Origin: a virus
IMG/VR virus record: IMGVR_UViG_3300034374_003448
Span: 1-25,085 of that record
Length of the DNA stretch: 25,085 nucleotides
Strand: one strand, 5' to 3'
Part shown: piece by piece, positions 5,721-24,959 of the stretch
Position numbering within the stretch: position 1 is the first letter of the stretch
Layout of the letters: every line of letters starts with the position of its first letter
The notes under the pieces: generated by a model
What the model was told of the DNA's origin: nothing
The model's database searches: none
What the model saw: the letters and a program-made list of their open reading frames with translations, nothing else
Translations under genes and position numbers: made by a program

Positions 5721-6193
5721 AGTGAATCCTTTAAGTCCTTAATTTTCATGTTATAACAACTAGCTTTAACGATATAGCCATTAGAAGTATCAACATCCCC
5801 TTTACTAAGGAAGTTTGCTTTATCAAAGTATTCTTCTTTTGACATAACGCCTAAGAACCAACCTTTACTCATATCGTTTAAGATACGAACAAACGCATAA
5901 GCGTCACATTTCTGTTTAGTATTATAAGCTGCTACAGAGCAGTCATAATCAGGCAGGGGTGTGACACTTGTGCGTTTTGTTTTGACATCTACAGATGACC
6001 CATCTTCCAGTATAAGATCATAATCATATGAGTTATCCCAACTTCCTCCTAACACACTTAGGGCAATTTGTTCTCCTATAAAACCAGCGAAGTTTCCTGC
6101 GCCGGAGGTTATAGAATTATTTAGCTTGCCCAATTCAATGGCTTTGTCTTGGGCTTTAGCCAGCATCTCGTGTGTTACTAATACTTCTTGCAT
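5717..6193 (-). CDS. Predicted PD-(D/E)XK-fold nuclease-like protein
   Basis: A 158-residue protein starting one base after the stop of the ribonucleotide reductase gene, with a Shine-Dalgarno sequence (GTAGG) inside that gene's end. The arrangement of acidic residues resembles the PD-(D/E)XK nuclease core: a helix with GE (E41), a strand YDYDL (D59), and SSVDVKTK (D69, K71) followed by a strand CSVAAYN and an aromatic-rich strand. This pattern is found in phage and restriction endonuclease-like proteins of unknown target. Degradation of host DNA or a recombination role is possible. Fold assignment is an inference from motif spacing. Confidence 0.6.
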   Translation of the reverse strand: MQEVLVTHEMLAKAQDKAIELGKLNNSITSGAGNFAGFIGEQIALSVLGGSWDNSYDYDLILEDGSSVDVKTKRTSVTPLPDYDCSVAAYNTKQKCDAYAFVRILNDMSKGWFLGVMSKEEYFDKANFLSKGDVDTSNGYIVKASCYNMKIKDLKDSL

Positions 6194-15100: not shown

Positions 15101-15177
15101 TGGCGCACCCTAGAGGACTCGAACCTCTGACCCACAGATTAGAAGTCTGTTGCTCTATCCAACTGAGCTAAGAGTGC
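15101..15177 (-). tRNA. tRNA-Arg (anticodon UCU), CCA encoded
   Basis: A 77-base cloverleaf. The acceptor GCACTCT pairs with AGGGTGC (one G-U), the D loop is AGCTCAGTTGGATAGAGC, the anticodon stem ACAGA/TCTGT encloses a loop with TCT, and the T arm AGAGG-TTCGAGT-CCTCT is canonical. Discriminator G is followed by encoded CCA. It would read AGA and AGG, which are used heavily by this AT-rich phage and are the Arg codons of the Ser-X repeat genes. It lies inside the - strand operon, three bases beyond the upstream stop codon, so it is probably cut from a polycistronic transcript. Confidence 0.96.
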
Positions 15178-15180
15178 TTA

Positions 15181-15372
15181 TCAGTGTAGCGTATCGATAC
15201 CTAGTACCCAGTTCTCAGCACTATCTCTGTGGTAGTCTTCACTCTTTCCTAGGTAACTTTCTTCTCTGATCTTCTGGCCTTGTTCGTAGAAGACTACACA
15301 GAAACCACCTTCTTCCTTATAAACTTCAGACTTACGGTTATTTTCGTCATTGTAGTAGACTGAAAGTTTCAT
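15181..15372 (-). CDS. Small conserved-looking hypothetical protein
   Basis: A 63-residue protein with alternating charged and aromatic residues suggesting a small beta sheet (LSVYYNDEN, EVYKEEGGFCVVFYEQG) followed by a short helix. Its ATG has GGAG upstream, spaced about 7 bases, after the peptidase stop, and its TGA ends three bases before the tRNA-Arg gene. I recall similar short proteins in marine phages, but no function. Not assignable further. Confidence 0.62.
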   Translation of the reverse strand: MKLSVYYNDENNRKSEVYKEEGGFCVVFYEQGQKIREESYLGKSEDYHRDSAENWVLGIDTLH

Positions 15373-18097: not shown

Positions 18098-18967
18098 CTA
18101 CACTTTTTGTCTAGTACGTGCTTTAACCATGTTAAGATGTGCAAATGTATTAACTATATTTCTTACACCCCTATCCTCTTGGAATCCTACCACTGATGCA
18201 ATATCAGAATTAGATAATCCAGCAGCTTTCATCTGCGAAACAGCAGTCCTGCGTAGATAATGTACCTTTAATTCAGTAGGTAAATTAACTCGTTCCTTAA
18301 TCTTGTTTGCGTAGTAGTTAAATTTGTATATAGAATAAGGTTGGTACTTCCCATTTACGGGGTTTATGCTAGGCGCAACATACTCTTGAAATCCAAAGTC
18401 TCTCTCCTGCTGCTTAAGCAGGTCAATTAAAGGGTCTTCAATCTCAAGATATAAATTTGCGCCATGGTTTTGTGCTAGGGTTACAATCTTAGACTTAAAA
18501 TCTATGCTATCCCATTTTAGTGTTCGTATAATGCCCGGAGGCTGAGCCCATTCATAGATTAGTTGGGATATAACACCTATATTTCTACACTTAAAATCTG
18601 CATAACACGCCTCAAGAAATTTCATAACTTGAGAATGGGTCCATATAGGAGTGCATATTGTTTTATAAGGCTTAGTTTTCATTACAAAAGGATTTGGAAT
18701 GCCCACCTTTCCGATATGAAACATTGTTCTACATAACTGTACACACATGCGGCCAATAGTAGCAGAATAGTCTTTCATTATTCTGTTATAAAAATCAACA
18801 GCGAACTCCTTGTCTATAGACGCGGCATCCACGTTAAGATCAGGGATATATTTTTCTATAACCTGTAGAAAATAAAGGTACTGTTTTTGTGTAGTATCCT
18901 TTAGATTCAACATGCGTTCATGGGTTTTATATAAATTAATTAAATCTCCAAATGTTTTGGTAGTCAT
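18098..18967 (-). CDS. Tyrosine-recombinase (integrase) family protein lacking key catalytic residues
   Basis: A 289-residue protein with a SAM-like N-terminal DNA-binding domain (about 1-90) and a phage-integrase fold: the segment ending GIIRTLKWDSIDF (145-157), HYLRR (H236, R239) and a C-terminal NTFAHLNM. The usual catalytic tyrosine position is Phe (F275, codon TTT); the box II 'GH' is G261-F262; and the first catalytic arginine position appears to be Pro (143/144) by alignment to LKW. The H-x-x-R pair is kept. It may be inactive for strand cleavage, or a co-opted DNA-binding protein. The ATG at 18967 has GGAGG spaced 5 bases, right after a terminator; an upstream ATG at 19021 would read through that hairpin. 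Confidence 0.8.
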   Translation of the reverse strand: MTTKTFGDLINLYKTHERMLNLKDTTQKQYLYFLQVIEKYIPDLNVDAASIDKEFAVDFYNRIMKDYSATIGRMCVQLCRTMFHIGKVGIPNPFVMKTKPYKTICTPIWTHSQVMKFLEACYADFKCRNIGVISQLIYEWAQPPGIIRTLKWDSIDFKSKIVTLAQNHGANLYLEIEDPLIDLLKQQERDFGFQEYVAPSINPVNGKYQPYSIYKFNYYANKIKERVNLPTELKVHYLRRTAVSQMKAAGLSNSDIASVVGFQEDRGVRNIVNTFAHLNMVKARTRQKV

Positions 18968-18978
18968 AGCATCCTCCA

Positions 18979-19009
18979 TAAAAATAGGGAGGGGAATTAA
19001 CCCCTCCCC
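18979..19009 (-). terminator. Rho-independent terminator after the DUF932-like gene
   Basis: On the - strand an 8-bp perfect G/C stem (GGGAGGGG with CCCCTCCC, 18987-19008) has a 6-base loop and is followed by TATTTTT. It lies 19 bases after the stop of the DUF932-like gene and directly before the ribosome-binding site of the integrase-like gene. It would isolate these two genes transcriptionally or lower integrase expression to read-through. Confidence 0.88.
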
Positions 19010-19027
19010 TGATGAAAGCATTACAGC

Positions 19028-19900
19028 CTAGGCTGCAAGGGCTTTGAATTGTGGGCTGTTTACCCACTTTATTACGGACTGTTCCCGCATAAACATGTTC
19101 ACTGCCTCATTGTCATTATCAGAGGCTTTCAGTTTAAACCCATTACGTTCATCCGCATACGTGGCATAGTTAGTGAATGCACTGTACAATGCATACACAT
19201 TATGCCCTCGCGTCTGCGTTTCCTCAAGGTAGAGGTGTCCCATCTTCTCAGCCTTACGCTTACTGCCTACGATCTGTGGAAGCAGTAGCTCAACATCCTC
19301 GAAGGCTAGTTCCTTTTCGGCCCACGTTTGTAAGACCCTGCCATGTTCATGGAACTCCACCTTAGCCTTATTTAGCTCATCAATGAAGCTATTTAAGCTG
19401 AAGTTAGCAGTGTTCTTACGCTTAACTTTATCCCAATCACCAACAATCATACCATTGGTGCAGAACGCATCAATCGCCCCAAAGAAAACCTGATTGGAGC
19501 ATAGCCCATCAATGCCATGCAAGGCAATGACACGCTGCGCAACATCCACTTGATGCTTCTTAGTGGTGACGCTGTAACGGACGTTCGGCAGGGTAATATC
19601 CATCAGAGCAAAGCACCCATTACGTGCTGTCTTCCAGCTAACCTTAGCATCTTGAAGATCGTGAATGCTTAGGTTGTCCCTAATTGTGTCTTGTACACGG
19701 GAGAAGTATTCGGGGTGAGAAGCACACTTAAACTTTGACCCTACTACATCTAGCGGATCACCCGTTACAGCGTTCACAACGTACTTCTTGTGTGCTACAC
19801 GGGACGACTCAAAGAAGATGTCGAAGTTTACATCTTCTGGGATTTCCCCAAACACATTTTGGTTCATGTTCGGGAAAGAGATAACGGTATCGAGCGGCAT
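19028..19900 (-). CDS. DUF932-like phage/plasmid protein
   Basis: A 290-residue protein with the look of the DUF932 family found in phages and plasmids: an early segment KYVVNAVTGDPLDVVGSKFK followed by HPEYF, and beta-rich NVRYSVTT-type strands in the middle with a helical C-terminus. The biochemical function of the family is unknown to me. I prefer the ATG at 19900 (AAAGGA spaced 6 bases) over that at 19933. It forms an isolated unit between a consensus-like promoter and a strong terminator. Two 60-base lines counted inside it are 50% G+C, against about 33% for a line counted in the adjacent integrase gene. Confidence 0.72.
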   Translation of the reverse strand: MPLDTVISFPNMNQNVFGEIPEDVNFDIFFESSRVAHKKYVVNAVTGDPLDVVGSKFKCASHPEYFSRVQDTIRDNLSIHDLQDAKVSWKTARNGCFALMDITLPNVRYSVTTKKHQVDVAQRVIALHGIDGLCSNQVFFGAIDAFCTNGMIVGDWDKVKRKNTANFSLNSFIDELNKAKVEFHEHGRVLQTWAEKELAFEDVELLLPQIVGSKRKAEKMGHLYLEETQTRGHNVYALYSAFTNYATYADERNGFKLKASDNDNEAVNMFMREQSVIKWVNSPQFKALAA

Positions 19901-19937
19901 TGCATTTCCTTTCATAGCAGCCGTTAGTGACACACTT

Positions 19938-20604: not shown

Positions 20605-20869
20605 TTTCTTCTCCTAAGATAGTCTTTAGACTCCAGAATAAAGCCTCATACTGTGAGAGCAGACTCAAGAGTTCACCCACCTTTTCTAGGTCAGCTTGTC
20701 TACTCTCCACTGGGTTGCTTACTGTTTGGTAGTTTCTACCATGGAATAACATTCCTCTAATAGAAACCAGCGCATCATGTAAGTAAGACACACTACGATC
20801 TAAGTCGTCAGCTAGTGTGTCGAAATCTTTCGGGCTGTTACCGTTGAGGTTAGGTCTTGCATAGATCAT
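20597..20869 (-). CDS. Hypothetical helical protein
   Basis: A 90-residue, mostly helical protein: DFDTLADDLDRSVSYLHDALV, then LEKVGELLSLLSQYEALFWSL, with a central basic turn (HGRNYQ). GGAAG precedes the ATG by 6 bases. It begins the small-gene run that leads into the DUF932-like gene. No family is recognised. Confidence 0.65.
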   Translation of the reverse strand: MIYARPNLNGNSPKDFDTLADDLDRSVSYLHDALVSIRGMLFHGRNYQTVSNPVESRQADLEKVGELLSLLSQYEALFWSLKTILGEENV

Positions 20870-20921
20870 ACTAGTCTTCCTTACTCTAGTTTATTGGGAG
20901 GGTTCCCGTAAGTCTCCTACT

Positions 20922-21023
20922 TTAGAGTGGTTTGTATTCGCGAGTAACACAGAAAGAAAAGCAGAGGCGTCCTACCTTTATGAAAAGGATACCACCTACT
21001 TTCTTTGAAGATATATTCCACAT
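20922..21023 (-). CDS. Possible microprotein downstream of Ser-X array 1
   Basis: A 33-residue frame starting at an ATG 13 bases after the stop of repeat gene A, with the same stop-Shine-Dalgarno fusion (TAGGAG) upstream at 10-base spacing. It does not contain the conserved head or Ser-X repeats. It has a short hydrophobic stretch with basic residues (GGILFIKVGRLCFSF), possibly membrane-associating. Support is only the ribosome site and position, so it may not be translated usefully. Confidence 0.35.
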   Translation of the reverse strand: MWNISSKKVGGILFIKVGRLCFSFCVTREYKPL

Positions 21024-21036
21024 AGGTTTCATTCTC

Positions 21037-21282
21037 CTAGTCAGACCCAGACCCAGACCTAGACCCAGATCCAGACCTAGACCCAGACCAAGACCAAGAC
21101 CTAGACACAGACCCAGACACAGACCCTGACCAAGAGCCAGACCAAGACCCAGACCCCGACCCAGACCTAGACCTAGACCCAGACCAAGACCTAGACCTAG
21201 ACCTAGACCCAGACCAAGACCAAGACACAGACCCAGACACAGACCTAGACCAAGACCTGTACTTGGTTCGTTTAGTTGCCAT
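21037..21282 (-). CDS. Ser-X repeat microprotein A (array 1)
   Basis: An 81-residue protein: a 10-residue basic head (MATKRTKYRS), then Ser at every second position with Trp, Arg, Gly or Val between, ending in Asp, its only acidic residue. The body is written with TCT for nearly every Ser and codons ending in G between. The ATG lies 11 bases after the stop of copy B, within TAG-GAGG-N7-ATG. Six copies share this design. In extended conformation all serines would face one side and Trp/Arg/Gly the other; nucleic-acid or membrane binding is conceivable but unproven. I do not recognise the family. Confidence 0.7.
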   Translation of the reverse strand: MATKRTKYRSWSRSVSGSVSWSWSGSRSRSRSWSGSRSRSGSGSGSWSGSWSGSVSGSVSRSWSWSGSRSGSGSRSGSGSD

Positions 21283-21670
21283 AGTTCTTCCTCCTAATCA
21301 GACCCAGACCAAGACCCCGACCTAGACAAAGACCTAGACCTAGACCCAGACCTAGACCCAGACCTAGACCTAGACTTAGACCAAGACATAGACCAAGACC
21401 CAGACCAAGACTCAGGCTCAGACCCAGACCAAGACTTAGACCAAGACCCAGACCTAGACATAGACCTGTACTTGGTTCGTTTAGTCACCATAGATGTTTT
21501 CTCCTAGTCAGACCTAGACCCAGACATAGACTCAGTCCCAGACCAAGAGCCAGACCAAGACCAAGACCCAGACCCGGACCTAGACCTAGACCCAGACCCA
21601 GACCTAGACCTAGGCATAGACCCAGACCAAGACCAAGACCTAGACACAGACCCAGACACAGACCTAGACC
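21040..21670. repeat. Hexanucleotide minisatellite array 1
   Basis: About 0.6 kb of degenerate 6-base repeats, AGACCN on the + strand (TCTNGG on the - strand, N = A, T or G, almost never C). It is broken twice by the conserved non-repeat segment holding stop, Shine-Dalgarno and 30-base gene head. The - strand is depleted in A outside AGG, with GG pairs every six bases, resembling telomere-type G-rich repeats. On the + strand the same sequence reads as Arg-Pro codons, which I treat as a shadow. Confidence 0.9.
21294..21491 (-). CDS. Ser-X repeat microprotein B (array 1)
   Basis: A 65-residue paralogue of copy A with head MVTKRTKYRS and a Ser-alternating body that includes Met, Lys, Leu and one Glu-Pro-Glu interruption (SEPES, about residues 24-28). 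The Shine-Dalgarno AGGAG begins within the stop codon of copy C; the start lies 12 bases beyond that stop. Middle gene of the first array. Confidence 0.7.
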   Translation of the reverse strand: MVTKRTKYRSMSRSGSWSKSWSGSEPESWSGSWSMSWSKSRSRSGSRSGSRSRSLSRSGSWSGSD

Positions 21671-21701
21671 AAGCCCTGTACTTGATTCGTTTAGTTGCCA
21701 T
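21504..21701 (-). CDS. Ser-X repeat microprotein C (array 1)
   Basis: A 65-residue paralogue with a slightly diverged head (MATKRIKYRA), the Ser-alternating body and a terminal Asp. It is the first gene of array 1 and starts 4 bases after the TAG of the preceding hypothetical gene. Its ribosome site (GGAG spaced 13 bases, or GGTGG nearer) is weaker than in the other copies, so it may rely on coupling to the gene upstream. Isolated breaks in the alternation (SMPRS, SGTES) show that the repeat is ageing. Confidence 0.68.
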   Translation of the reverse strand: MATKRIKYRAWSRSVSGSVSRSWSWSGSMPRSRSGSGSRSRSGSGSWSWSGSWSGTESMSGSRSD

Positions 21702-21705
21702 AGTT

Positions 21706-22203
21706 CTACCACCACTCCGGCTGTTGGGTTTTCCATTTAGCAAAGGAAGCCTTGGCCCCCCTGTAATAAGCACGATATGCTTCTACACAATCGTCCCTCT
21801 TATACTCATCTGGCATACACTGAGGCGGAGGGGTGAAAGATTCTAGGGGAATCCACAGTGGTGCATCCCTTAGATAGTAGGAGATTTCTTCTGACTTATG
21901 TATTTTTTTATACCTTTTCTTGTACTCATGGCAAAGAGTGTCATACAGTCTGTATAACCACTCATAATTATCTGCACTACTCCTAGCCCATACGGAGCTA
22001 GGATGATTTTGATGAGTTACTTTGTATAGGACAGAGTCTCTAATTCCAGACAAGACCCATCGCTTTTCTTCTAGCTTACCCTCCAACATACGGTGTGCCG
22101 TTGAGAGTATTTGCGCTGACTCCAACAGCATCTTAACCACATGCTTATCGCAGTGGTATTCTGCTGCGAGTCGAGGTGACTTATCTAAATAGAATATGTT
22201 CAT
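21706..22203 (-). CDS. Conserved-looking phage protein of unknown function
   Basis: A 165-residue protein beginning with a distinctive block: MNIFYLDKSP, then AAEYHCDKHVVKMLLESAQ and LSTAHR. The HCDKHVVK cluster (about 17-24) could bind metal. A second conserved-looking block is THQNHPSSVWARSSADNYEWLY near the middle. I recall similar phage proteins annotated as hypothetical, but no function. The ATG overlaps the TGA of the GcrA-like gene (ATGA). Its stop lies 4 bases before Ser-X copy C. Confidence 0.75.
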   Translation of the reverse strand: MNIFYLDKSPRLAAEYHCDKHVVKMLLESAQILSTAHRMLEGKLEEKRWVLSGIRDSVLYKVTHQNHPSSVWARSSADNYEWLYRLYDTLCHEYKKRYKKIHKSEEISYYLRDAPLWIPLESFTPPPQCMPDEYKRDDCVEAYRAYYRGAKASFAKWKTQQPEWW

Positions 22204-22556
22204 GCGATCCTCTCGTAGGGTACATAGGCTATATCACAGTGCTTCTTGCAGTAGGGTTTACCCTCCACTACATTTTCATCACCGCAATAGTGAAAGTTTG
22301 GCCTATTTGGATGGCCTATTGGCCAAGCACAGGTCTTCTTTACTGCAATAGGTTTTACTTTTATCTCTACTACAGCGAGGTTGGTACGAGTAGTCTTATC
22401 CTTTTTGGGCAGGCCCATTCGAAAGGCTTTCCCTATTACCGCCTTACGACTAACAACTCCTAGTATATCCGCAATCTCTTGCGCCGTGTATGCGGATGGC
22501 CATAGCTCCCGTAGCTTGTCTACTCTCCACCCAACCCAAACATTATCTCTAATCAT
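22200..22556 (-). CDS. gcrA: GcrA-like cell-cycle regulator
   Basis: A 118-residue homologue of GcrA, the alphaproteobacterial factor that binds sigma70-RNA polymerase and activates promoters carrying CcrM-methylated GANTC sites. The N-terminal helix-turn-helix reads LRELWPSAYTAQEIADILGVVSRKAVIGKAFRMGL in two blocks (15-31, 32-49). The C-terminal zinc-like part keeps C76 in CAWPIG, C91 in FHYCG, and C103/C107 in PYCKKHC, followed by AYVP. The family is confined to alphaproteobacteria and their phages, so this gene points to the host. ATGA overlaps occur at both ends. The likely role is redirecting host transcription or cell-cycle state. Confidence 0.93.
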   Translation of the reverse strand: MIRDNVWVGWRVDKLRELWPSAYTAQEIADILGVVSRKAVIGKAFRMGLPKKDKTTRTNLAVVEIKVKPIAVKKTCAWPIGHPNRPNFHYCGDENVVEGKPYCKKHCDIAYVPYERIA

Positions 22557-22708
22557 TCTCCGTACCTTTCTTCCAGTCTAGTATTATAGTCCACTACGTC
22601 AAAGGAGGGGCTTTCACCCCTCCACTCCTTAAAACAATCTCTACATGCATAGATAGCTATGCGGTCTTCTGAGTAGAGATATTCTAAGTCCTCACATTTG
22701 CATGTCAT
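22553..22708 (-). CDS. Small four-cysteine protein upstream of gcrA
   Basis: A 51-residue protein coupled at both ends by ATGA overlaps (22705-22708 and 22553-22556), strong evidence that it is a gene. Cysteines are arranged as CxC (C3, C5) and CRDC (C22, C25), a possible zinc site, with an acidic C-terminal helix (DYNTRLEERYGE). A perfect 7-bp hairpin with a GAAA loop lies within the coding sequence at 22604-22623. Function unknown. Confidence 0.72.
   Translation of the reverse strand: MTCKCEDLEYLYSEDRIAIYACRDCFKEWRGESPSFDVVDYNTRLEERYGE
22604..22623 (-). other. GC-rich hairpin with GNRA-type loop inside a small gene
   Basis: The - strand reads GGAGGGG, TGAAAG, CCCCTCC: a 7-bp stem closed by a possible U-G pair over a GAAA tetraloop. 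Only three T residues follow, so I do not call it a terminator; it could be a processing site or an attenuator upstream of gcrA. Confidence 0.45.
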
Positions 22709-23124
22709 GCTGCTAAAATCTCCTGTACTTGCTCATGGGTAAGGAGCTTCAATTCCCTATGGATTTCTAGCTTACCATCCGCAAAGATGTAGGGCGTTCC
22801 AAGCTTGCATGTAAGCATTACCTGTTCAGCCTTGTGGATTTCCGCAGTGCGGTCATTTTTTAACACAAAGTGATTTAGTGTGAATGGGTTGTAGATCACG
22901 TCTACAACGTTATTAAACACCTTGTGCGGTACAACGTCCCCTTCTACAAAAGCATGTACATTCTTCTGCCCGGTTCGACGAACCTTAGCTTGTCCAGACT
23001 TCCATACGATGAACTTTACATCCTCAAGGACTAGGTGATGGACATAGTCCACTACTATTTTCTTTTGCTTGTCTACAACGGAAAAGCATTGGCGTTGCAA
23101 GTTGTAGTATACTCTAGCGCGCAT
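22705..23124 (-). CDS. Conserved-looking phage protein of unknown function
   Basis: A 139-residue basic, beta-rich protein starting with MRARVYYNLQRQCFSV and containing DYVHHLVLEDVKF and RTGQKNVHAFVEG. I recall similar short phage proteins with a VHAFV-like motif, with no known function. I chose the ATG at 23124 because GGAGG lies 9 bases upstream; the frame is open 24 codons further. It overlaps the 3' end of the preceding frame by 52 bases and couples to the next gene through ATGA. Confidence 0.78.
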   Translation of the reverse strand: MRARVYYNLQRQCFSVVDKQKKIVVDYVHHLVLEDVKFIVWKSGQAKVRRTGQKNVHAFVEGDVVPHKVFNNVVDVIYNPFTLNHFVLKNDRTAEIHKAEQVMLTCKLGTPYIFADGKLEIHRELKLLTHEQVQEILAA

Positions 23125-23315
23125 TTGCTTCTTTCCTCCGACAAATACAGAACGACAATTGTATCCGTCCAATACGGATAAACCGAATGCCACCAATCTT
23201 TTTCATGGTCATGGCATACTTCCTCTTTAGTTTTAGCAGGATCATCAGTACCAGAATGCCAATCTGGTATAGGCTGAAGCAACTTGCTACATAGCAACTT
23301 GCCCCAACCTTTCAC
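23073..23315 (-). CDS. Probable small gene with GTG start
   Basis: An 80-residue frame starting at GTG, 4 bases after the stop of the gp88-like gene, with AAAGG spaced about 7 bases. It fills an otherwise empty 195-base gap and then overlaps the next gene by 52 bases in another frame. Its first 60 residues (with DWHSGTDDPAKTKEEV and DWWHSVYPYW) look protein-like and are rich in Trp and acidic residues. The long overlap makes it less certain; the C-terminus may be fortuitous. Confidence 0.48.
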   Translation of the reverse strand: MKGWGKLLCSKLLQPIPDWHSGTDDPAKTKEEVCHDHEKDWWHSVYPYWTDTIVVLYLSEERSKCALEYTTTCNANAFPL

Positions 23316-23319
23316 CCAG

Positions 23320-23931
23320 TTACCTTTTGCGGATAGCTTCCACTACATACGTTTTATCGTTGCGTGTATAGCAAGTCATGCAGTCTCTACAGCGTTGCCC
23401 CGTGCAGTCTTGCTGGTCTACAAACTTGTCCCGCGTGACGTTATTGAATACCTTATCAAAGTACATCGGCGGAACTGTCCGTAACTTGTTGACAAATGGG
23501 TTAGACCATACCAAGAATAAGTTTTCAGGCTTGCCATGTTTCCTAATGACAGCCTGCACCATGCCCGGACGTTTAGTCCACCACCCGAAAATTACTTTGG
23601 GGTTAGCACGGACTATGGCGAGATAATTTTCTGCATGTTGCAGATTTTCTACGTCCCCGTGATGGGAGAACCGGACTACGTCCCCCGGATAAAATCTTGG
23701 TATCTCGTGGTCCTCCAGAGGACGCTCCGTTATAAACCAATTGCGGTCAAGTGCCGCCTTTACACTAGGGCGGTATCCATTACCCAGTGTGGCATGGCTG
23801 TAGCAATAACGACAAATCCAGTCGTCACGGTCCACCTTGGACATCTTCTGGCAAAACTCTTGTTTAAGAGTGTTGGTTCCAATGGCGATCATGCGGTCCA
23901 TCTTGCCGTTTAACTTACTTACATGGGTCAT
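23320..23931 (-). CDS. Gp88-like phage protein with cysteine clusters
   Basis: A 203-residue protein resembling the phage 'gene product 88' group. It opens with KLNGKMDRMIAIGTNTL, then the cysteine motif EFCQKM..ICRYCYSH (about 26-45), a central RFSHHGDVENL strand-turn, WWTKRP, and a C-terminal cluster CTGQRCRDCMTCY (about 178-190). The CxxCY and C-terminal cysteines suggest a metal or Fe-S cluster with a radical-enzyme-like alpha/beta core, but this is inference. Its start overlaps the upstream small gene by 17 bases. Function is unknown; it lies in the early region. Confidence 0.65.
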   Translation of the reverse strand: MTHVSKLNGKMDRMIAIGTNTLKQEFCQKMSKVDRDDWICRYCYSHATLGNGYRPSVKAALDRNWFITERPLEDHEIPRFYPGDVVRFSHHGDVENLQHAENYLAIVRANPKVIFGWWTKRPGMVQAVIRKHGKPENLFLVWSNPFVNKLRTVPPMYFDKVFNNVTRDKFVDQQDCTGQRCRDCMTCYTRNDKTYVVEAIRKR

Positions 23932-24091
23932 TGTCCATCCTCCTGAGTTTTAGGACTAGCTTTGCAGCGAGTAGGCTGCGGTTTTCTTTGGGGCTGTTCA
24001 AAGATGAACAGTCCTCGTGATTCTCCACCATAGCTTTAAGAATCCACGAAGGTTCTCCTCCGTACATCGACAGTGCTTCTATGTATGTCAT
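23915..24091 (-). CDS. Small hypothetical protein after Ser-X array 2
   Basis: A 58-residue protein with an excellent ribosome site (TAGGAGG spaced 4-5 bases from the ATG), following Ser-X copy F by 22 bases. It is mostly helical (YIEALSMYG, PSWILKAMVENHED, RSLLAAKLVLKLRRM), suggesting a small helical bundle. It overlaps the gp88-like start by 17 bases. No family is recognised. Confidence 0.66.
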   Translation of the reverse strand: MTYIEALSMYGGEPSWILKAMVENHEDCSSLNSPKENRSLLAAKLVLKLRRMDNDPCK

Positions 24092-24113: not shown

Positions 24114-24293
24114 CTAGTCAGACCAAGACTCAGACCAAGACCTAGACCTAGACCCAGACCAAGACCAAGACAAAGACCTAGACCCAGACCTAGACAAAGA
24201 CCAAGACCCAGACCTAGACCTAGACCAAGGCCAAGACTTAGACCCAGACCCAGACCTAGACAAAGACCTACATTTGGTTCGTTTAGTTACCAT
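24114..24293 (-). CDS. Ser-X repeat microprotein F (array 2)
   Basis: A 59-residue paralogue with head MVTKRTKCRS, where Cys replaces Tyr, and a Ser-alternating body of Leu, Arg, Gly, Lys, Trp and Glu, ending in Asp. One Ser is replaced by Pro (WPW, about 21-23). It starts 11 bases after the stop of copy E in the TAG-GAGG cassette and ends with TAG immediately followed by TGA. Last gene of array 2. Confidence 0.7.
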   Translation of the reverse strand: MVTKRTKCRSLSRSGSGSKSWPWSRSRSGSWSLSRSGSRSLSWSWSGSRSRSWSESWSD

Positions 24294-24304: not shown

Positions 24305-24424
24305 CTAGTCAGACCCAGACCCAGACTCAGACCAAGACCAAGACCCAGACCAAGACCAAGACCTAGACCCAGACCTAGACTCAGACCAAGACCTAGACCT
24401 GTACTTGGTTCGTTTAGTCACCAT
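24305..24424 (-). CDS. Ser-X repeat microprotein E (array 2)
   Basis: The shortest paralogue, 39 residues: head MVTKRTKYRS, then an unbroken Ser alternation with Arg, Trp, Glu and Gly, ending in Asp. Every repeat Ser is TCT and every repeat Arg is AGG. Its head DNA is identical over 30 bases to that of copy B in the other array. A clean ATG with AGGAGG upstream, 12 bases after the stop of copy D, argues that even this short version is a gene. Confidence 0.68.
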   Translation of the reverse strand: MVTKRTKYRSRSWSESRSGSRSWSWSGSWSWSESGSGSD

Positions 24425-24436
24425 AGTTACATCCTC

Positions 24437-24622
24437 CTATTCAGACCAAGACACAGACTCAGACCCAGACCAAGAATTAGGCCCAGACCCAGACCCAGAC
24501 CAAGAATTAGGCCCAGACTCAGACCCAGACCAAGAATTAGGCCCAGACCCAGACCCAGACCAAGACCCAGACCAAGACCCAGACCTAGACCTAGACCGGT
24601 ACTTGGTTAGTTTAGTTGTCAT
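24437..24622 (-). CDS. Ser-X repeat microprotein D (array 2)
   Basis: A 61-residue paralogue with head MTTKLTKYRS and a Ser-alternating body that includes three copies of a 10-residue unit GPNSWSGSxS. It ends in Glu rather than Asp. AGGAGG is spaced about 8 bases from the ATG. First gene of array 2, preceded by a short remnant of another copy. The GPNS units come from a 30-base tandem duplication found only here, showing recent expansion. Confidence 0.7.
   Translation of the reverse strand: MTTKLTKYRSRSRSGSWSGSWSGSGSGPNSWSGSESGPNSWSGSGSGPNSWSGSESVSWSE
24471..24560. repeat. 30-base higher-order tandem repeat within copy D
   Basis: CAAGAATTAG recurs at 24471, 24501 and 24531 with exact 30-base period, with nearly identical sequence between. 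Each unit encodes ten residues of the microprotein (GPNSWSGS plus two). This is a second level of duplication superimposed on the 6-base repeat. Confidence 0.92.
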
Positions 24623-24649
24623 AACTCTTCCTCCTAGTCAGACCAAGAC

Positions 24650-24676
24650 CTAGACCCTTGGTTAACAAAGGTCTAG
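24650..24676. other. 11-bp inverted repeat upstream of array 2
   Basis: CTAGACC at one end and GGTCTAG at the other continue through one G-U and three more pairs to a 5-base loop containing TTAAC, giving an 11-bp stem. One arm is repeat-derived sequence from the remnant copy. No T-run follows on either strand, so it is not a typical terminator. It could be an RNA processing site or a trace of the recombination that created the array edge. Confidence 0.6.
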
Positions 24677-24692: not shown

Positions 24693-24959
24693 TTACGTCT
24701 TGTTCATGACGCCGAACGACTCAATCGCAGCCGTCTGGACATACCAAGCTTCAGCGCCAAGGTCTTGGGCGTCCTTCCACTTTGCGTCATTGAAGGGACC
24801 AGTTTCGTAGACCACTTTGGCTCCGGTCAATTTGACGCAAGAGCTATTCACACCTACCAGCTTACCTGTGTAGATATAAACACCACACCACAGCGTCACA
24901 GTCTGACCCAGCAGGGCTTCGAGACCTTCGTTCTGCACTTCGTTAACGATAACTTTCAT
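24693..24959 (-). CDS. Small beta-rich conserved-looking phage protein
   Basis: An 88-residue protein with AAGGA spaced 7 bases from the ATG. Residues 15-55 show five alternating strands and Gly turns (TVTLWCGVYIYTGKLVGV, then CVKLTGAKVVYETG), like a small Sm-like or SH3-like barrel, followed by a Trp-rich segment (KWKDAQDLGAEAWYVQTAAIESFG). I recall similar marine phage proteins annotated as hypothetical. The fold is a guess from the strand pattern; an RNA-binding role would follow only if it is confirmed. Confidence 0.7.
   Translation of the reverse strand: MKVIVNEVQNEGLEALLGQTVTLWCGVYIYTGKLVGVNSSCVKLTGAKVVYETGPFNDAKWKDAQDLGAEAWYVQTAAIESFGVMNKT

Follow-up and report, generated by a model that had tools for sequence, protein, structure and literature searches.

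Eukaryotic SR (RS-domain) proteins and the RG tails of SmB, SmD1, and SmD3 are Ser/Arg- or Arg/Gly-rich disordered segments that work with ribonucleoproteins (RNPs). The phage repeat proteins described here differ from them in their strict S-x alternation, in being one third Trp, and in having no RRM, so the likeness is an analogy only. The nearest published system is the Borg Sm ribonucleoproteins, which are described as carrying amino-acid tandem repeats, with units of 4-17 aa, N-terminal to the Sm domain (PMC9879509, section 2.4.1). The Borg proteins share with our locus an Sm fold, a predicted disordered tandem repeat, a location on an extrachromosomal element, and fast-evolving repeats; but in the Borgs the repeat is fused to the N-terminus of the Sm domain, while here it is a separate, closely coupled, and often tandem phage gene with a dipeptide unit. 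A search of the open-access literature for phage dipeptide repeats, phage Sm proteins, DUF6948, or tandem small genes found no description that matches this module, which is a weak negative. We regard the module as a new kind of system, although both the Sm fold and Sm proteins with repeats were already known.

The stretch of DNA that we analysed (the window) is a virus record of 25,085 b that contains two arrays, each with three cassette genes on the minus strand. The cassettes look like the second gene, copied in tandem, of a two-gene viral module that has no name, because the same type of gene lies behind an Sm-like protein in many uncultured phages. Gene 1 would encode a small protein whose predicted fold is Sm/LSm. 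Gene 2 would encode a small, basic, low-complexity protein with a lineage-specific head followed by (Ser-[Arg/Trp/Gly])n, or S[RWG], which is encoded by hexamers (TCTNGG in the window).

Array 1 is transcribed in the order C-B-A and comprises cassettes C (21504-21701, 65 aa), B (21294-21491, 65 aa), and A (21037-21282, 81 aa); array 2 is transcribed in the order F-E-D and comprises cassettes F (24437-24622, 61 aa), E (24305-24424, 39 aa), and D (24114-24293, 59 aa). All six have the same plan: a head, Mx-TKRTKYRS, which is present six times in the window with few changes; then Ser-x dipeptides from TCTNGG-like hexamers; and a TAG stop. Within the cassettes, 97% of the serine codons are TCT, versus 37% in the window's other genes.

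The first-pass annotation proposed that the TAG stop is the first part of a TAGGAG(G) that also serves as the Shine-Dalgarno (SD) sequence of the next gene, with the ATG 11-12 b on. We found this arrangement (TAG|GAG) at all four internal junctions: C>B (GACTAGGAGAAAACATCTATG), B>A (GATTAGGAGGAAGAACTATG), F>E (GAATAGGAGGATGTAACTATG), and E>D (GACTAGGAGGAAGGACTATG), with 12, 11, 12, and 11 b from stop to ATG. On the minus strand, the C>B junction lies at 21492-21509 (GACTAGGAGAAAACATCT, then ATG) and the B>A junction at 21283-21299 (GATTAGGAGGAAGAACT, then ATG). These four junctions are not independent events, as they descend from one ancestral junction. There are two exceptions: the start of cassette C overlies the stop of the upstream gene (GGTGGTAGAACTATG), without TAGGAG, and the stop of cassette D (GACTAGTGAG) is not followed by GAG. 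Ahead of cassette F, at 24623-24650 (minus strand), the sequence retains what is left of a lost cassette, its tail (GSRSWSD-stop) and a TAGGAGG (tail GGTCTTGGTCTGAC plus TAGGAGG, 24630-24650), which the first-pass annotation did not list. The stop-SD of a lost copy thus apparently serves the first gene of array 2 as well. At the 5' edge of array 2 lies a hairpin (TAGACCTTTG-TTAAC-CAAGGGTCTA, 24651-24675, minus strand; RNA fold -11.8 kcal/mol, z -3.7) that is conserved in the viruses L174, L092, and L002. The annotation was also right that a TAGGAG feeds the frame at 20922-21023 (minus strand; 33 residues, MWNISSKKVGG...): the TAGGAG after cassette A sits 12 b before ATGTGG (21023). In a sequence comparison, this frame recurs behind the array of L174 with two differences, both synonymous, and may thus be a genuine small gene.

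If the cassette is the repeating unit, as was proposed, then close relatives should gain and lose whole cassettes with their heads intact. We compared the window to two relatives, 3300025647_000468 (G005) and 3300025687_000190 (G003), which are about 98% identical to it over long flanks, and this is what we found. Array 1 has three cassettes in the window and four in both relatives; array 2 has three cassettes in the window and two in G005 (G003 does not reach array 2). The alignment has 281 gap columns in array 1 and 113 in array 2, but none in the 2,412 b that separate them, where identity is 99.1%. The contigs are short-read assemblies, in which copies could be hidden or collapsed, but the four-cassette array 1 is identical in G005 and G003, and identical arrays in independent assemblies argue against such an artefact. 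All 15 of the cassettes that we compared (from the window, G005, L174, and L002) are intact, each with an odd number of residues, which implies that the bodies change by whole hexamers.

Furthermore, window cassette C is orthologous to the second of the four cassettes in G005 (8 differences in 198 b), while the first cassette in G005 (g1a) combines the upstream junction of window C and a C-like head with the tail and junction of window B. This mosaic suggests recombination within the bodies, with the tail-stop-SD-head block kept whole. Thus, that the block moves as one and that exchange occurs within a hexamer body of variable length is well supported, although the reshuffling is inferred from its end products. 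Two other differences lie at the edges of the arrays. Just behind array 1 (about 20614-20926), the window differs from G005 and resembles L174 (92.7%), which from this comparison is recombination beside an array. Where the window has a gene block between its arrays (21706-24091), L174 has a single array instead, so the arrays coincide with a gene-order breakpoint.

Gene 1 of the module (24693-24959, minus strand, 88 aa) lies upstream of array 2, with the repeat genes directly behind it. The AlphaFold2 models of this protein and of a diverged subtype have pLDDT of 92.5 and 93.5, and the two subtypes match each other by profile (E = 3.7e-11). Both predicted models have the five-stranded, strongly bent barrel of the Sm/LSm fold; an N-terminal helix before the barrel is predicted in the window subtype only. 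In VIA-align, the matches to the window protein are headed by Sm/LSm chains (Z = 9.3-10.5, with 62-77 of 88 residues aligned), and the rank-1 matches for the two subtypes have Z = 10.5 (2.3 Å, 69 residues) and Z = 9.6 (2.0 Å, 65 residues). Foldseek E-values were moderate (best 1.2e-3, for the gene 1 model). The Sm/LSm fold is thus well supported as a prediction. In the gene 1 alignment, G32 and G54 are invariant.

Gene 1 resembles the RNA-binding rings of the Sm/LSm/SmAP and Hfq proteins in its predicted fold, but unlike them it has no above-cut-off sequence match in Pfam, NCBIfam, or PDB profiles. PDB sequence profiles gave no solved relative; no Pfam, PHROGs, or NCBIfam family passed its cut-off for the tested members of either gene; and neither gene 1 (two subtypes) nor cassette A matched a PADLOC profile. 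The NCBIfam family MM0924 matched gene 1 at E = 0.0013 and 18 bits, below its cut-off of 45. Structure matches in BFVD include phage proteins that are DUF6948 members by name, but the Pfam profile for DUF6948 did not match either subtype at E = 1. (We did not read the absence of a family from the structure-match lists as exclusion.)

The two genes find each other in both directions. We scanned for five TCTNGG units (at least 119 stretches) and for TCA/TCC/TCG units (at least 120 stretches). Among the matches listed were plain microsatellites and many short head-(S[RWG])n genes with many unrelated heads, and 119 of the 234 loci fetched in this way have a relative of gene 1, which is on the same strand and mostly stops about 40 b upstream of the first repeat run. 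For the reverse search in viral contigs, we used only a gene 1 profile, from the closer alignment subset A2. Among the 80 loci listed, 68 have an S[RWG] repeat gene behind gene 1, and another 6 lie on contigs that end within 98 b of gene 1. L520 and L525 have degenerate repeats (by eye). The other four (L501, L502, L544, and L567) have no repeat gene by the criteria that we used, despite ample sequence, which means that the link has exceptions. The repeat forms its own reading frame, unfused to the Sm domain, both in the window and in the gene-1 loci that we examined. Two GenBank records contain the module: MW202573.1 has the pair, annotated as two hypothetical proteins, and MW202825.1 has gene 1 with two repeat genes. 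(In MW202825.1, or L289, an apparent Illumina adapter, AGATCGGAAGAGCGTCGTGTAGGG, lies at the end of the second repeat gene, at about 6010-6050, which suggests a misassembly there.) Several viral contigs (L506, L516, L524, L532, L541, L550, L561, and L575) end within about 100 b of the Sm-like gene. Assembly probably breaks in the array, and the module is thus likely to be under-counted.

These searches indicate that the S[RWG] genes are a widespread family, with a short lineage-specific head and then (S-[R/W/G])n; its counts may include same-species duplicates, and the sets of loci may be biased to arrays that can be assembled. Of the 172 clusters among the matches listed, 36 comprise two or more genes, and up to eight. 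Across the family, the start of a repeat gene is usually tightly linked to the preceding gene, by start/stop overlap or by stop-SD fusion. Among the matches listed, gene 1 and gene 2 overlap by start/stop codon in 31 of 66 pairs and have gaps of 12 b or less in another 18, while neighbouring repeat genes overlap at 28 of 68 junctions (mostly ATGA or GTGA) and are at most 12 b apart at 26. The TAGGAG fusion also occurs with two unrelated heads, MRYLFEGS (L191) and MNPAIQAWS (L307), so it is one of several solutions to coupling. The suggestion that the stop-SD fusion is what makes the cassette work is therefore not supported, and "self-propagating", as the cassette was called, goes too far, as it implies a drive that nothing shows.

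The most likely function of the module would be that of an RNA-binding Sm ring whose disordered partner is encoded separately. The Sm-like protein would form the ring and the S[RWG] proteins would be its detached, disordered partners, with Arg providing charge for RNA, Trp for stacking, and Ser/Gly as a spacer, a role that their composition and neighbourhood suggest. Cassette copy number and length would set dose and valency. The exchange points would fall within the mutually homologous hexamer bodies, so that every product keeps an intact, coupled gene, and copy number could shift in one step at the cassette junction with expression unbroken. Taken jointly, we consider the two-gene module, the cassette-exchange mechanism, and the Sm/S[RWG] RNP function to be likely. 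The module recurs in many uncultured phages, its Sm-like gene constant and its repeat gene hypervariable. A broader proposal is tentative, and we would not bet on it at even odds: that tailed phages widely carry an RNP system with an Sm-like ring and separate S[R/W/G] disordered arms, retuned by slippage and cassette exchange. If so, the length, number, and R/W/G mix of the arms could be quickly retuned, with every product expressed via the stop-SD or start/stop overlap. The module itself would add a viral Sm-like family beside those of archaea, eukaryotes, and bacteria, in which the ring and its repeat partners are encoded by different genes.

Alternatively, the S[RWG] peptides might be cationic, Trp/Arg-rich effectors that act on the host's membrane, nucleic acids, or translation, with gene 1 controlling their expression or masking them. 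Their R/W/G composition does resemble Arg/Trp-rich antimicrobial peptides, their heads are basic, and rapid variation in length and copy number would suit an arms race. However, the libraries that we searched gave no match to a toxin or any other family, a repeat diluted with Ser and Gly is atypical for an amphipathic peptide, and an Sm fold is not known to act as an immunity protein. We consider this explanation unlikely.

A cassette has also arrived at a new site. In three contigs of another phage species (L001, L002, and L004), a single cassette lies between the genes for primase-helicase and DNA polymerase; the lone cassette of L002 is closest to window cassette B in head and tail. In L420, L421, and L422, the same junction is empty, with flanks that are 98-99% identical (98.0 and 99.1%). 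The filled and empty sites differ by 263 b: a 248-b insert, which starts with the hairpin (TAGACCTTTG...GGGTCTA) and ends with TAGGAGAATGAAACCTAT, and a 15-b duplication (AATGAACTATGAAGA). Overall, whole cassettes have been gained, lost, reshuffled, and, once, inserted ectopically, with the tail-stop-SD-head kept as a unit. Unequal crossover, which was the proposed mechanism, fits the whole-cassette changes in copy number among relatives but does not explain this lone insertion. The insert raises the idea that the cassette is itself a small mobile element that moves between sites and phages. Its presence or absence among contigs that are 98-99% identical, its 15-b duplication, and its edges, which match array edges elsewhere (the TAGACC... 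hairpin and TAGGAGAATGAAACCTAT), all fit this idea, as does L174, whose Sm-like protein is identical to the window's but whose replication genes are unlike the window's. Yet there is only one such event, and we saw no transposase and no terminal inverted repeats. Furthermore, the insertion site already consists of a 14-b tandem repeat, albeit an imperfect one, at which either transposition or template switching could have given the duplication. We think it quite improbable that the cassette is a mobile element.

Codon usage bears on whether the repeats are selected as proteins or as nucleic acid. Among the matches listed, we analysed 69 arrays from a set that was not biased by hexamer. The serine codons are nearly uniform within each array but differ between arrays (TCT in 39, TCG in 18, AGC in 6, and TCA in 6). 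Diversity was 0.086 at the synonymous position of serine versus 0.612 at the base that chooses R, W, or G, and the latter was larger in 69 of 69 arrays. W is present in every array, and the variable positions are about 30% R, 31% W, and 39% G. Turnover of the repeats, which homogenises them, accounts for the uniform synonymous codons, so something else must maintain the R/W/G mixture. Most simply, the mixture would be kept by protein-level selection; a mutation hotspot at the R/W/G-choosing base is less likely. This would be a clean natural case of protein-level selection opposing the homogenisation of a tandem repeat.

The array might instead act as DNA or RNA (a recombination hot spot, a binding platform, or a packaging signal), with the reading frames as by-products of a stop-free hexamer. 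In the window's family, the synonymous position of serine is the most constant and the amino-acid-changing base is the most variable, as a fixed TCTNGG would require, and the arrays flank the gene block that is rearranged between the window and L174. But the use of TCG, TCA, or AGC for serine in other arrays leaves no common motif (we dropped a fixed TCTNGG as the selected feature once these arrays were found), and an array usually keeps to one Arg codon (AGG or CGG) even as W, R, and G stay mixed. Odd residue counts and start codons that overlap the partner's stop also argue for protein-coding genes, so we regard this explanation as very unlikely. Finally, functionless microsatellite slippage or an assembly artefact is hardly credible: although hexamer scans also pick up plain (TCTTGG)n or (TCTCGG)n runs and contigs tend to stop in arrays, there are identical arrays in independent assemblies, a constant neighbour gene, W in 69 of 69 arrays, and conserved heads and couplings.

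With two queries, gene 1 turned up in 2 of 50,697 phage records and, in searches for prophages, in none of 398 genomes from a Pseudomonadota-centred sample and in 1 of 287 from a Patescibacteria-centred sample. Among the hexamer matches in metagenome-assembled genomes are a few on short, possibly viral contigs. Of 25 contigs, 11 have a terminase domain, as expected of tailed phages. With megablast, the window gave only short tRNA-Arg matches to phage records (at about 15130-15190). A GcrA-like protein in the window (22200-22556; PF07750, E = 8.8e-24) hints at an alphaproteobacterial host. The window also encodes an integrase-like protein (18098-19021; phrog_1, E = 1.3e-20) and a DUF932 protein (19028-19933). 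By eye, a similar gene is present in L174 (2565-3422), where it sits directly behind the array and the MWNISS frame.
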